Shown one piece after another: positions 3,928 to 9,843 of a stretch of DNA of 64,000 nt (positions within the stretch are counted from its first letter, which is position 1; each line of letters begins with the position of its first letter). The translations under genes were made by a program, and so were the position numbers. A model generated the notes under the pieces. The model had not been told where the DNA came from. It did no database searches and was given only the letters and a program-made list of their open reading frames with translations. The DNA comes from Candidatus Diapherotrites archaeon (lineage in GTDB: Archaea; Iainarchaeota; Iainarchaeia; Iainarchaeales; 1-14-0-10-31-34), in the NCBI GenBank assembly GCA_040755695.1, contig JBFMAK010000001.1, positions 510,637-574,636 on the forward strand, read 5' to 3'.

Positions 3928-6900
3928 TTATTTCCCTAATTCAATCTTTTTTATTACTTCGTAGTCTTTGATTATGTTTACTGTGGCTTTGGGGGAAATC
4001 CTTGCTATCTTCTGGATTTCTTTCTGCGAGAGAACCTTTCCTTCAATTTTCAGCATGTCTTTCACTCCAAATTTCTTGCTGTGAATGTTTGTAACCATGC
4101 TGATTGTAGAATTTGGATACTTTCTCTTAATGTTTAAGGCTTCAATGATGTCCAAGGCCCTGTTCTGTGCTATATGGTCTATTACTGTACCATTCTCGAT
4201 CTTGTTTATTTTGTATTCTTTCTCCATTCCAGACAACCTCCAGTATTCTTTCAAGCTTTTCGGGTTAAGAGAGGGTTTTGCCTCTAAGCTCTTCACAAAG
4301 GCTTCAGCTGTATTGAATTCTGAAATTACTGGAATGCCGTACTCTGCAGCCTTCTTTCTTATAGAGCTTTCTTTCTCTAAGTCAATTACAATTTCAGGCA
4401 TTCTTTCAGCATCAAATTCTTTTGTTGAATTAAAGCCAATTCCTTTAATTCTTTCAATAAATTTTTCTTCAACACCTTTTATGAACACGGTTCCTTTGGC
4501 TTTGCCTTCAAGAGAGAAAGGAAAGCTCTGCTCTATTGCAATCAATGCTTTCAGGAAGGCTTCCTCAAAGCTTTCTCCTAAGCAGGCAATTTCCCCTGTT
4601 GAATTCATTTCAACTGAAAGTTTGGGGTCTATTCCCCCTAACCTTGACCACGAAAACATTGGAACCTTGATTGAGCACACGCCTGCAATTTTAGGTTCAG
4701 TTTCATGCAGTGCTTCCCCTAACATGCATTTTGTTGCTAATTTGATTAAATTCACTCCAATTGTCTTGCTAGTGAAAGGCATTGACCTTGAAGCCCTCAA
4801 ATTGCATTCAATAACAAATATTTCTCTGTCCTTCACTAAATACTGCATGTTGAATGGGCCTTTTATGCCCAAAGACTGTGCAATCCTTTTAGTGTAATCC
4901 CTTATTTTTTCTTGTATTTCCTCTGAAAGACTTTGGGGCGGAATAACCATGCTTGCATCTCCTGAATGCACTCCTGCTCTCTCTATGTGCTCTATTATTG
5001 CTCCAATGAATACATTCTTTCCGTCAGATACTCCATCAACCTCGCACTCCATTGCAGTCAAGAATTTTGAAATCACAATAGGGCAGTCTTTTGAAACAAT
5101 TACAGCGCCCTTAACGTATTCTTTTAGTTCCTTCTGGTTGAATGCAACCTTCATCGCAGACCCTGAAAGGACATAGCTCGGCCTCACAATTACAGGAAAG
5201 CCTATTTTTTTCGAGAAGGCCTTGATTTCCTTTAGTGAAGCAAGGCTCTTCCACTCAGGCTGTGCAATGCCCAATTCATCAAGTAAAGAAGAAAACTTCT
5301 GCCTGTTCTCTGCTGAATCAATGTCCCTTCCAAATGTCCCAAGGATGTGGATGCCTCTCTTTGCGAGAGAGAATGCAAGGTTGTTTGATGTCTGGCCTCC
5401 AACTGAAACAACTACCCCAAAAGGATTCTCTTTTTCAATTATGTCAAGCACCCTCTCCAAAGTAATTTCCTCAAAATAAAGCTTGTCTGACATGTCATAG
5501 TCTGTGGAAACAGTCTCCGGGTTGCAGTTCAGCACGATTGCCTTCAGTCCTTTTTCTTTTAGGCCCCACACGCAGTTCATTGTGCACCAGTCGAATTCAA
5601 CGCTCGAGCCAATCCTTATAGGGCCTGCACCTAACACCAATGCTTTAGCGCTGTCAGAAAAATCAATGTCGTTCTCTGTTCCATTATAAGTGAAATAAAG
5701 GTAATTGGTTTTCGCAGGCCATTCTGCTGCAAGTGTGTCAATCTGTTTTACTACAGGAATTATCCCGTAATGCTTTCTGAGCTCTCTTATCTTTTCCTGG
5801 GATGCATTCAGCATTCCTGCAATCTTTTTGTCCGAGAAACCTAATTTTTTTGCCTGTGAAAGAACTTCAGGAAAATCTTCATTGGAGAAATTCAGTTTCT
5901 TTAATTTACTGTGCATTGAAGCAATATTTTTTATTTTATGCAAAAACCATTCATCCACCCCTGATAGTTCATGGATTCTTTCAATTTTCATTCCCTGCCT
6001 TACTGCCTGAACAATTGCAAAAAGCCTTTGGTCTGTAGGATGCCTTAATTCTTCCTCCAGTTTTCTTATTTCAATTTTCTCTTCCTCAATTAATTCCCTT
6101 CCTATTTCAAGCATTCTCACTGCCTTCTGTAATGCCTCCTCGAAATTCCTGCCAATGGCCATTACCTCTCCTATTGCCTTCATCTGGCTCCCAATCCTCC
6201 TGTTCACTCCAGAAAATTTCTGGAACTCCCATCTCGGAATCTTTACTACAATGTAATCCAGTGCAGGCTCAAAGCAGGCTTTTGTTGCTCCAGTCACCTT
6301 GTTCAATAATTCAGGGAGAGTGAATCCCACTGCAAGCTTTGCTGCAATGTAAGCTAAAGGGTAACCAGTAGCCTTGCTTGCAAGAGCAGAGCTCCTGCTC
6401 AGCCTTGCATTGACTTCAATTGCATAATACTGCTGGCTTTTAGGATCCAATGCAAACTGAATATTGCACTCCCCCACAATTTTTAATGACCTTATAACCC
6501 TTATTGCAGCGCTCCTGAGCAGATGATATTCCTTGTTTGTTAAAGTCTGCGATGGAGCAACAACAATTGAGTCTCCAGTATGAATGCCTAAAGGGTCAAG
6601 GTTCTCCATATTGCAGACAGTAATGCAGTTGTCGCTCGAGTCCCTTACTACCTCGTACTCCAATTCCTTCCAGTGAAAAAGATATTTTTCTATTAGGACT
6701 TGGCCTATCATTGAATGCTTTAATCCAATCCCTGCAATCTTCTCTAATTCTTCTTCATTCCATGCAATGTCCGACCCTAACCCACCCAAAGTATAAGCAG
6801 GCCTTACAATTACCGGATACCCAATCTTTCCTGCTGCCTCCAATGCGCTCTTGACAGAAATTGCAGTCCTGCTCTCAGGGACAGAAACATCAGCTTCCTT

Positions 6901-7293
6901 CATTGCCTTCTTGAATTCCTCCCTGTCCTCTGTTTTCTTAATTACTTCAATCCCTGTGCCTAAAACCTTCACTCCATGCTTCTTCAGAATTCCTTTCTCC
7001 TCTAATTTCACTCCAGCATTCAATGCTGTCTGGCCTCCAAAACTCAAGAGAATTCCATCAGGCTTCTCCAATTCAATTATTTTCTCTAGAAATTCAGGGG
7101 TAATAGGCTCAAGATAAACCTTGTCTGCAAGCTCTGATGTTTGAATTGTAGCAATATTAGGGTTCACCAATACAGTCTCAATGCCTTCCTCTTTTAATGC
7201 CTTTAATGCCTGCGAGCCAGAATAATCAAATTCTGCCGCCTGGCCAATTCTAATGCCTCCAGAGCCTAAAAGTAAAACTTTGGCTGGTTTCAC
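3928..7293 (-). CDS. carB: Carbamoyl-phosphate synthase large subunit fused to PyrI-like effector domain
   Basis: A 1121-residue protein with both CarB ATP-grasp halves: N-terminal SGGIRIGQAAEFDYSG and a second copy GAGPIRIGSSVEFDWC near residue 560, each followed by ATP-grasp motifs (RPAYTLGGLG, RPSYVLSGSAM). It makes carbamoyl phosphate from bicarbonate, ammonia and two ATP. A shortened MGS-like region follows to about residue 1010. Residues 1027-1121 then match the N-terminal allosteric domain of PyrI, the aspartate carbamoyltransferase regulatory chain: NGTVIDH, GVKDMLKIEGKVLS, SPKATVNIIKDYEV. The PyrI zinc domain is absent. The start is GTG at 7293, with AAAGGAGG upstream inside the endonuclease gene, whose TGA overlaps it as GTGA. 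Confidence 0.93.
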   Translation of the reverse strand: MKPAKVLLLGSGGIRIGQAAEFDYSGSQALKALKEEGIETVLVNPNIATIQTSELADKVYLEPITPEFLEKIIELEKPDGILLSFGGQTALNAGVKLEEKGILKKHGVKVLGTGIEVIKKTEDREEFKKAMKEADVSVPESRTAISVKSALEAAGKIGYPVIVRPAYTLGGLGSDIAWNEEELEKIAGIGLKHSMIGQVLIEKYLFHWKELEYEVVRDSSDNCITVCNMENLDPLGIHTGDSIVVAPSQTLTNKEYHLLRSAAIRVIRSLKIVGECNIQFALDPKSQQYYAIEVNARLSRSSALASKATGYPLAYIAAKLAVGFTLPELLNKVTGATKACFEPALDYIVVKIPRWEFQKFSGVNRRIGSQMKAIGEVMAIGRNFEEALQKAVRMLEIGRELIEEEKIEIRKLEEELRHPTDQRLFAIVQAVRQGMKIERIHELSGVDEWFLHKIKNIASMHSKLKKLNFSNEDFPEVLSQAKKLGFSDKKIAGMLNASQEKIRELRKHYGIIPVVKQIDTLAAEWPAKTNYLYFTYNGTENDIDFSDSAKALVLGAGPIRIGSSVEFDWCTMNCVWGLKEKGLKAIVLNCNPETVSTDYDMSDKLYFEEITLERVLDIIEKENPFGVVVSVGGQTSNNLAFSLAKRGIHILGTFGRDIDSAENRQKFSSLLDELGIAQPEWKSLASLKEIKAFSKKIGFPVIVRPSYVLSGSAMKVAFNQKELKEYVKGAVIVSKDCPIVISKFLTAMECEVDGVSDGKNVFIGAIIEHIERAGVHSGDASMVIPPQSLSEEIQEKIRDYTKRIAQSLGIKGPFNMQYLVKDREIFVIECNLRASRSMPFTSKTIGVNLIKLATKCMLGEALHETEPKIAGVCSIKVPMFSWSRLGGIDPKLSVEMNSTGEIACLGESFEEAFLKALIAIEQSFPFSLEGKAKGTVFIKGVEEKFIERIKGIGFNSTKEFDAERMPEIVIDLEKESSIRKKAAEYGIPVISEFNTAEAFVKSLEAKPSLNPKSLKEYWRLSGMEKEYKINKIENGTVIDHIAQNRALDIIEALNIKRKYPNSTISMVTNIHSKKFGVKDMLKIEGKVLSQKEIQKIARISPKATVNIIKDYEVIKKIELGK

Positions 7294-8717
7294 AGACCAA
7301 ATGCCTCCTTTCTGTTTGGTAAAAATGGTTGAATTCTTTTTTTATTGTATAATCCATTTAAAAATTTAAAATTACGTTTTTTATGTAGGTTAAATAGTTT
7401 ATGGTTAAAAACATTGAGTAGGTTTTGCTGACGCTGTATTTTTATTGATTTATACTTTAAGTTTGAGTTTATAGTAATGCCCAACTTTTTTAAGGCTTGT
7501 GAATACAAATCTATTTCCTTCTGGTTTTCAATTCTAATTTGTATATAATCCAAATTACTATTTGAGATTATTGGTGAGCCATCTGCTGCCAAAACTCCTT
7601 GCATAAACCATTTAGAATAATCGATCTTCTTCGTTAAAAAAAGGGTAATATTATTTAAGATACTAAACCAAACTTCTCTGAAAACAACATCTGGCAAATA
7701 TAAGTGCAGAGAACCACACTCAGCAATTGGGTTACCTACAAATAACTTTGTTTTGGTGAAATTAACAAATGGAATATTAATCTGTTTGCTCCATATTTTC
7801 TTAAACTTTTTTTCTTTTTGAAGTGATTTTTTTAAGTTTGTATAAATTATTTTTGCCCTCCATTTAACTCGTGGTGCTAAAAAGTTTTCTTCAAAGCATT
7901 CCAAAAATAAATTTATTAAGTTAAAATCTGAATTTACAATTTCAACTCGCCTTAAATTGTTTTTACTTCCTTCTCCTTGAAAAAGTCCTAGTGATTGAAC
8001 TAATTTTTCATTCAATTTGATATAACGTGGTAATTCAACATGGGTTCCGACTCGCCCGGACCACACCCACAACTTGCCTGCATTTAAAAATGCTTTAATT
8101 CTATTAGTGCTTTTTAATTTAAGAACATACAGGTCAATGAAAATATCGCCCCCTTTTTCAATTAAGGGCTCTAAATTCGGATTACTATAATCCTCAATTT
8201 TTTTAAGGAATATTACTTTTTCTTCTGCTTGATCAGAGTTAGATTGCAACAGCCCATATGGGATATAAAATTTAAAATAATCATTATTTCTATCTTTTCT
8301 TTCAGTTTTTTTTATTTTTGAAACAAACGTTATCCCTTTTAATTTGCAAATAATAATATCTTTATCTTTTAAGCAAACTTTTTTTGCAAGCTCAATAGGA
8401 AAATACGCAGGGCTATACCCCGCATGAATTTTTCTTTTTTTTACTTTTATATAAAAAGTAGTTTCATCAATTAGTTTTTTGGGTATCTTAAATATTTTTA
8501 ATTTTTGTCTTTTTTTCTTTACACCGCCTTGAGAAAAGTTTTTATTAAATTTAATGGAAAGCTCATTAGCTATTTTTTTATCAGTCACGCCATTTTCGGA
8601 CAAACATTTTAATTCTTTAATATGCTCTTCAATCCAAATATTCATCTCTGATCTAATAAATAAAAAAGTTGCTTGTATTTTAAAATCGTTTTCAAAGAGC
8701 ACATCTCCCATGAACAT
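7290..8717 (-). CDS. LAGLIDADG-family homing endonuclease between carA and carB
   Basis: A 475-residue protein with two LAGLIDADG-type helices about 130 residues apart: QSLGLFQGEGS (240-251) and WFMQGVLAADGS (370-381), with acidic residues E249 and D379 in the catalytic positions. The N-terminus has a helix-turn-helix-like stretch (residues 30-58, SENGVTDKKIANELSIKFN). Members cleave long asymmetric DNA sites and promote their own spread. It is free-standing, not an intein or intron: carA is complete before it and carB complete after it. Its first ATG is 1 base after the carA stop and its stop overlaps the carB start. It is visibly more AT-rich than its neighbours, suggesting transfer. The true start may be M25. 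Confidence 0.85.
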   Translation of the reverse strand: MFMGDVLFENDFKIQATFLFIRSEMNIWIEEHIKELKCLSENGVTDKKIANELSIKFNKNFSQGGVKKKRQKLKIFKIPKKLIDETTFYIKVKKRKIHAGYSPAYFPIELAKKVCLKDKDIIICKLKGITFVSKIKKTERKDRNNDYFKFYIPYGLLQSNSDQAEEKVIFLKKIEDYSNPNLEPLIEKGGDIFIDLYVLKLKSTNRIKAFLNAGKLWVWSGRVGTHVELPRYIKLNEKLVQSLGLFQGEGSKNNLRRVEIVNSDFNLINLFLECFEENFLAPRVKWRAKIIYTNLKKSLQKEKKFKKIWSKQINIPFVNFTKTKLFVGNPIAECGSLHLYLPDVVFREVWFSILNNITLFLTKKIDYSKWFMQGVLAADGSPIISNSNLDYIQIRIENQKEIDLYSQALKKLGITINSNLKYKSIKIQRQQNLLNVFNHKLFNLHKKRNFKFLNGLYNKKRIQPFLPNRKEAFGL

Positions 8718-8718
8718 C

Positions 8719-9843
8719 TTACTTCCCTCTTATAATTTTAACAAATTTGTCAAAAAGAAACTCAGTATCAGTGGGGCCAGGACAAAATTCTGGATGAAAT
8801 TGCACTCCAAACAATTTCTTTTTTTTGTTCTCAATCCCTTCCACTGTCCCGTCATTTGCATTCAAGTAAGTTACCTCAGCTTTTCCTTCAAGGGATTCAG
8901 CTTTTACAGCAAAGCCGTGGTTTTGGGAAGTAATATGGCATTTTCCTCCATTCAATTCAATTACAGGATGATTCTGGCCCCTGTGCCCAAACTTTAGCTT
9001 GAAAGTGTCAGCACCCAAAGCCCTTGCAAGCACCTGGTTGCCCAAGCATATTCCAAACAAAGGCACTTTATATTCAATCAGTTTTCCCGCTGTTTCCACA
9101 ACGTAATTAATTTTTTTTGGGTCTCCTGGGCCATTGGAAATTAATATTCCATCAGGATTGAAAGACAAAATTTTTTCTGCTGAAAAATTTGCAGGAACCC
9201 TAATTACCTTCACATCCCTCTTCTGCAGATTCCTGATTATATTCTCCTTGCAGCCGCAGTCAATTACCACAATCCTTTTCCCTTTGCCCTCATAAAATAT
9301 TTCCTTTTTTATTGTCACTTCTGCAACCAAATCCCTTTCATTCGGGTCCTCAATTCTTGCTGCCTCTTTCAGGAGCTCTTCTTCATCCACTTCCTTTCCC
9401 GCACTTAAAATTCCAAGCATTGTGCCTTTCTCCCTTAAAGCCTTTGTTAACTGCCTTGTGTCAATGCCTTGAATTCCAGGAATTCTTTCCTTCTTCAGCC
9501 ATTCACTCAAATTCATTTCAGAGGAATAATGCGACGGCCTTTCGCACAATTCTCTTACAATGTATCCGGCAATTTTTGGTGCATCAGACTCAAAGTCTTT
9601 ACTGCTTACACCATAATTTCCTATTAGAGGGTAGGTCTGGCACAGAATCTGCCCGTAATATGAAGGGTCAGTTATTGCTTCAGTGTATCCTACCATTCCT
9701 GTATTGAACACTATTTCCCCTGAAGCCCTTGAATTAGAGCCGAATGCTTTCCCGTAATAAATGCTACCGTCTTCAAGAACAAGAATCGCAATTTCTTTTG
9801 CTTTCTTTCGGGCTTCCTCTCGCGAAAAAATAAAAACCCACAA
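8719..9843 (-). CDS. carA: Carbamoyl-phosphate synthase small subunit (glutaminase)
   Basis: The small subunit hydrolyses glutamine and channels ammonia to CarB. The N-terminal CarA-specific domain (EDGSIYYGKAFG, NTGMVGYTEAITDPSY) is followed by a class I glutamine amidotransferase domain with the nucleophile Cys in FGICLGNQ and the His-Glu pair in QFHPEFCPG. At up to 374 residues it has normal length. The longest start is TTG at 9843, but the conserved protein begins at about IAILVLEDG and no clear Shine-Dalgarno precedes TTG. With a TATA-like box at 9861-9870 transcription should begin near 9840, so the true start may be further in. The stop is 1 base before the endonuclease ATG. Confidence 0.95.
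   Translation of the reverse strand: MWVFIFSREEARKKAKEIAILVLEDGSIYYGKAFGSNSRASGEIVFNTGMVGYTEAITDPSYYGQILCQTYPLIGNYGVSSKDFESDAPKIAGYIVRELCERPSHYSSEMNLSEWLKKERIPGIQGIDTRQLTKALREKGTMLGILSAGKEVDEEELLKEAARIEDPNERDLVAEVTIKKEIFYEGKGKRIVVIDCGCKENIIRNLQKRDVKVIRVPANFSAEKILSFNPDGILISNGPGDPKKINYVVETAGKLIEYKVPLFGICLGNQVLARALGADTFKLKFGHRGQNHPVIELNGGKCHITSQNHGFAVKAESLEGKAEVTYLNANDGTVEGIENKKKKLFGVQFHPEFCPGPTDTEFLFDKFVKIIRGK

Follow-up and report, generated by a model that had tools for sequence, protein, structure and literature searches.

The window, as we call the whole 64,000-nucleotide stretch of DNA analysed here, carries on its minus strand a gene whose product is a CarB without recognisable MGS domain joined to a PyrI allosteric domain without zinc domain. 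The features of the locus are:

8719-9843 (minus): carA, the glutaminase subunit of the same enzyme (PF00988 and PF00117), in operon orientation with carB
7290-8717 (minus): 475-aa ORF between carA and carB, without a family and outside the proposed function
3928-7293 (minus): carB-pyrI fused gene, a single open frame of 1121 codons plus stop
4519-7293 (minus): CarB catalytic core, residues 1-925, two ATP-grasp halves and the oligomerisation domain (TIGR01369, Foldseek)
4249-4503 (minus): MGS remnant, about residues 931-1015, degenerate and shortened (alignment; no PF02142)
4228-4248 (minus): junction EYWRLSG, where the natural C-terminal EY motif of CarB runs straight into the PyrI start
4237-4241 (minus): GGAGG, a ribosome-binding-like motif within the frame, 9 nt ahead of an in-frame ATG
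3928-4227 (minus): possible internal product, a putative free PyrI domain of 99 aa from the ATG of M1023
3937-4212 (minus): PyrI allosteric (nucleotide-binding) domain, residues 1028-1119 (PF01948, Foldseek)

The fused frame runs uninterrupted from 7293 to 3928 and encodes 1121 aa. It starts with GTG, preceded by GGAGG at a spacing of 10 nt. The CarB core scored 1459 bits against TIGR01369 over residues 2-925 (curated cut-off 1027), and the match covers model positions 5-937 of 1052. The predicted full-length structure (mean pLDDT 85, pTM 0.84) matched E. coli CPSase over the core with a TM-score of 0.86 (1a9x/1bxr, Foldseek) and also matched human CPS1. The 475-aa ORF between carA and carB has no relative in Pfam, NCBIfam, PHROG or PDB and is missing from the relatives' carA-carB operons examined. 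By eye it contains two LAGLIDADG-like stretches, LGLFQGEGS and GVLAADGSP, and it is possibly a free-standing homing endonuclease. An Rfam scan of the window gave no match.

A preliminary description of this DNA had assigned the C-terminal 95 residues to the nucleotide-binding domain of PyrI, the regulatory chain of aspartate carbamoyltransferase (ATCase). The profile search bears this out. PF01948 matched residues 1028-1119 of the full protein with 89.6 bits (E 1.6e-25; gathering cut-off 25) and the last 100 residues alone with 96.8 bits. The range given earlier, 3928-4215, was right within a few codons, the domain proper occupying 3937-4212. The PyrI zinc domain had been reported as missing, and PF02748 was indeed not found in the window's CarB-PyrI protein. 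The whole-PyrI model TIGR00240 scored 89.8 bits, below its cut-off of 148.55, with only positions 2-92 of 150 covered. A PDB sequence search with the fused domain returned ATCase regulatory chains only, the best of them archaeal (1pg5_B, E 2e-21; 2yww, E 7e-18). In an AlphaFold2 model of residues 921-1121 the PyrI part forms a block with pLDDT mostly 93-98, and it superimposes on 1pg5_B with an rmsd of 1.1 Å over 91 columns (Foldseek probability 1.00). The effector-domain fold on which the preliminary description had made its assignment depend is thus present. The linker at residues 1024-1031 has pLDDT below 50 in the monomer model, and the orientation of the PyrI part relative to the core is uncertain.

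The preliminary description had proposed that DPANN genomes be surveyed for the same fusion, and further fused genes were found in Aenigmatarchaeota. Among 156 genomes of that group, three contain complete fusions of 1114-1126 aa (G196, G197 and G231), and a fourth (G198) contains a fusion truncated by the end of its contig just after the PyrI part begins. Two more genomes have the parts unfused. On the G087 contig (L064), which a scan of GTDB contigs revealed, carA and a carB with short MGS are accompanied by a PyrI-domain gene of 107 aa that stands on its own, 20 nt after carB and in a different frame; in G207 a PyrI-domain gene of the same length overlaps the end of carB. The total is five fused genes, that of the window included, and two unfused pairs. 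No other CarB-PyrI fusion was present among 87 genomes of the window's phylum, where the complete CarB proteins of the window's order reach TIGR01369 positions 1050-1052 and therefore have a full MGS domain. About 300 further archaeal genomes, a limited genomic sampling, yielded no fusion when searched with a fusion-specific profile; the next-best match, G521, has coordinates identical to those of G207 and is the same genome, related to the window genome only at the domain level. Two very divergent PyrI-like proteins on long branches (L110 and L111, from G204 and G210; 46-51 bits) perhaps represent another subfamily. In the two genomes with unfused pairs, a carbamoyltransferase gene with a weak match to the ATCase model adjoins a carbamate-kinase-like gene (L202 in G087, L203 in G207). 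This carbamoyltransferase is probably of the ornithine type, and the pair may provide a possible second route of carbamoyl phosphate.

The distribution bears on whether the fusion is an artefact, two genes having been joined by mistake in sequencing or assembly; a frame error of this kind had been named at the outset as something that would undo the fusion. Two relatives do have separate genes, but the in-frame junction recurs with a matching linker in four other, independent genomes, and we reject such an error as extremely improbable. Most normal CarB proteins end soon after a (D/E)-Y motif in the alignment. The fused junctions read (E/D)YWRLSG-M, or EYWREN-M in G231, and lead directly into the PyrI start. 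The carB of G207 ends EAYNEKAH, and within this end, preceded by GGAGG, lies the start of the PyrI gene. An overlapping carB/pyrI pair of this kind would become a fusion if the stop codon were lost or the frame slightly altered, and descent of the fused form from the two-gene arrangement is supported by these sequences.

The internal GGAGG and ATG raise the possibility that a free PyrI domain of 99 aa is released from the fused gene. In an in-phase overlapping arrangement, the fused protein and the free domain (ATG at 4227) would both be made, the free domain acting as a regulatory beta subunit that pairs with its fused counterpart; this reading would refine the best explanation given below. 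Regulatory subunits of this kind are known from B. subtilis aspartokinase II, where an in-phase overlapping gene has its internal start at the boundary of the C-terminal regulatory domain. That enzyme is unrelated, however, and the start within carB-pyrI is a candidate from sequence. Each of the five fused genes has an in-frame ATG 6-9 nt behind a GGAGG, and the motif precedes only 3 of the 242 internal in-frame ATG codons in the long frames of the window. The start of carB itself also lies behind GGAGG, as does that of the unfused PyrI gene in G207, whose GGAGG is inside the end of carB, and the internal start position corresponds to that of the separate 107-aa genes of G087 and G207. Against this, AGG is the commonest arginine codon in the fused genes (48-76%), and the conserved Trp-Arg would alone keep GGAGG in all five with a probability of about 0.1; codon use thus explains much of the motif, and we rejected its conservation as proof of internal initiation. 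GGAGG is perhaps a relic of the unfused state, and most starts in the window have no strong SD motif nearby. We consider synthesis of both products possible but less likely than not.

The MGS domain of the window's CarB had been called short. It has about 40 residues fewer than its relatives, and PF02142 found no match in it even at E 10. This profile was detected in none of the seven PyrI-linked CarB proteins vs. all three normal relatives tested. The MGS region, counted as alignment columns 941-1100 with the CarB tail and linker included, comprises 96-110 residues in linked CarB vs. 142-153 in nearly all relatives. The missing block of about 40 residues includes the ATxxT nucleotide loop, which is lost in all seven linked proteins and which aligns in our own alignment with E. 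coli Thr974/Thr977. Thr977 and Lys993 are UMP residues of E. coli CarB and are needed for UMP control of CPSase (PMC6245113). A short MGS region, 112 residues by the same count, was also seen in the CarB of another Aenigmatarchaeota genome (L128 in G105), which lies outside the clade of fused and unfused forms and has no PyrI match in its genome.

The residues of the E. coli effector site are retained in the added domain. D1039, H1040, K1082, N1106, I1108, Y1111, V1113 and K1116 had been named correctly in the preliminary description, and the equivalent of E. coli K56 is also kept, so that D19, H20, K56, K60, N84 and K94 all have their equivalents in the window domain. In the six complete CarB-linked PyrI domains D19, H20, K56, K60 and K94 are kept without exception, and N84 is kept in five (cysteine in G196). 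An allosteric role of Asp19, Lys56 and Lys60 in E. coli ATCase has been discussed (PMC6056424). As a separate observation, 30 of the 32 ATCase PyrI chains from the window's phylum have F, L or Y at the K60 position, that of the window genome itself (L002:1426-1944) having L. The position is K in all the other Aenigmatarchaeota PyrI (30/30), other archaeal PyrI (28/28) and Bacteroidales PyrI (8/8) examined. Nucleotide discrimination by ATCase may be altered across the window's phylum.

The CarB-linked PyrI domain is under purifying selection. Between G196 and G197 its dN is 0.169 and its dS 1.74, and the CarB core gives 0.166 and 1.83, with dN/dS about 0.1 in both; dN of the MGS remnant is 0.423. 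The similar dN of PyrI domain and core and the higher dN of the remnant indicate that the PyrI domain is strongly constrained and the old domain relaxed. These values bear on the idea that the attachment is structural or vestigial, aiding folding or oligomerisation and having no regulatory role. Stop loss between overlapping genes, arranged as in G207, can indeed yield a fusion. A dN/dS near 0.1, a rate equal to that of the core and the retention of charged effector residues over deep divergence speak against it, and we judge this idea quite unlikely.

We examined the descent of the gene in a tree of the CarB core, built without the MGS and PyrI parts. One clade (SH-aLRT 99) unites the CarB proteins of the five fused genes and of the two unfused pairs, and within it the fused five group together (SH-aLRT 92). 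The moderate support of the fused-only clade makes a single fusion event likely, not certain. In the PyrI tree the six complete CarB-linked domains form one clade at 100, apart from ATCase PyrI. The window genome has only one other PyrI, a normal regulatory chain of 172 aa encoded behind pyrB on a different contig, and this copy sits with its own family at 99. The tree thus rules out recent duplication of the local pyrI as the source of the fused domain. The window's CarB is placed inside an otherwise Aenigmatarchaeota group, and the CarB proteins of its own family (G002, G003) are distant and have a full MGS domain. Its CarA is closer to those of the fused Aenigmatarchaeota genomes, at 58-61%, than to those of its own family, at 46-48%. 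Vertical inheritance within the window's phylum is unsupported by these comparisons. The window lineage probably acquired carAB with the attached PyrI domain by transfer from another phylum.

The ATCase genes of these genomes provide a further context. The order in G196 is pyrB-pyrI-pyrE-like (L112:5515-7523). In G197 (L199:1477-3058) and G198 (L200:823-2481) pyrB lies beside the pyrE-like gene with no pyrI between them. A whole-genome search of G197 found only the fused PyrI domain and no ATCase PyrI; the same search of G198 found none, its fused copy being cut by the contig end. G231 and G087 have no pyrB above cut-off, in assemblies that may be incomplete. From these four genomes, the CarB-linked domain seems independent of an ATCase regulatory partner. 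This bears on a role as docking tag, in which the domain would tie CPSase to ATCase (PyrB/PyrI) and hand over carbamoyl phosphate, with no nucleotide sensing. Carbamoyl phosphate is unstable, and since PyrI dimerises in ATCase, the organisms of the window, G196 and G207 could conceivably form mixed dimers with the ATCase PyrI. However, the fused protein lacks the zinc domain, the part of PyrI in contact with PyrB, the linked clade retains the effector residues, and neither G197 and G198, where no ATCase PyrI was found, nor G231 and G087, as far as their assemblies go, would offer the partner. A docking role is in our view unlikely.

We consider it probable that CarB-PyrI is a CPSase with a decayed MGS domain, in which the PyrI domain serves as a substitute allosteric sensor of CTP, UTP and ATP. 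The domain would at first have been encoded by a small gene of its own, in translational coupling with carB, and would then have become covalently attached as allosteric sensor in place of MGS. Binding of CTP or UTP vs. ATP in the PyrI pocket would shift the state of the adjacent carbamoyl-phosphate ATP-grasp half, and pyrimidine feedback would so reach the pathway at its first step. The signal of the E. coli PyrI domain passes through the zinc domain, which is missing here, and another route must be assumed, probably via PyrI-PyrI dimer contacts and the MGS remnant. Nucleotide binding, the direction of the response, the dimer contacts and internal initiation are what we infer for CarB-PyrI. 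Against a regulated CPSase, the window organism also has an ATCase with its own PyrI, and control has therefore not moved completely there; the cysteine at the N84 position in G196 also counts against it. A wider proposal is that these proteins make up a new allosteric class of CPSase: the sensor would have moved to the first enzyme, CarB-PyrI and free PyrI would form mixed dimers, and the ATCase of G197 and G198 would then have lost PyrI as the control point moved. We put this forward tentatively, as a doubtful extension.

CarB-PyrI can be compared with several known systems. Like E. coli CarB (TIGR01369; 1bxr/1a9x), it has the full catalytic core, carA in the operon and an allosteric domain in C-terminal position; unlike it, the MGS domain is degenerate and a PyrI domain is added after it. 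With PyrI of ATCase (PF01948 and PF02748; 1pg5_B, 2yww, E. coli 1d09_B) it shares the N-terminal domain fold and the effector residues, but the CarB-linked domain lacks the zinc domain, is attached or adjacent to carB and forms a separate clade. In the fused PyrB-PyrI ATCases (NF009916 PRK13376; class B, PMC4581275) PyrI is likewise covalently joined to the enzyme that it regulates, but there it is attached to the catalytic chain of ATCase and retains its zinc domain. Animal CAD, too, joins CPSase to part of ATCase; that part is the catalytic domain, MGS-type regulation is kept and there is no PyrI. Known fusions involve either PyrI and PyrB or CPSase and the catalytic domain of ATCase (PMC4581275; PMC6022934). 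The preliminary description knew of no described example of a CPSase-PyrI fusion, and we found none in the literature searched, whose scope excluded subscription papers and preprints. As far as this literature goes, CarB-PyrI is a CarB variant with a substituted allosteric domain, newly described here.

ATCase with its PyrI chain is a textbook case of allostery, and we know of no PyrI described apart from ATCase. In CarB-PyrI the same sensor appears to serve a different enzyme. Living relatives still show the two-gene intermediate, an old domain in decay and an ATCase operon lacking pyrI. The CarB-PyrI family thus allows a direct test of the portability of allosteric domains and of the movement of control points in evolution. 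In a few tiny archaea, feedback control of pyrimidine synthesis has probably moved one step upstream.
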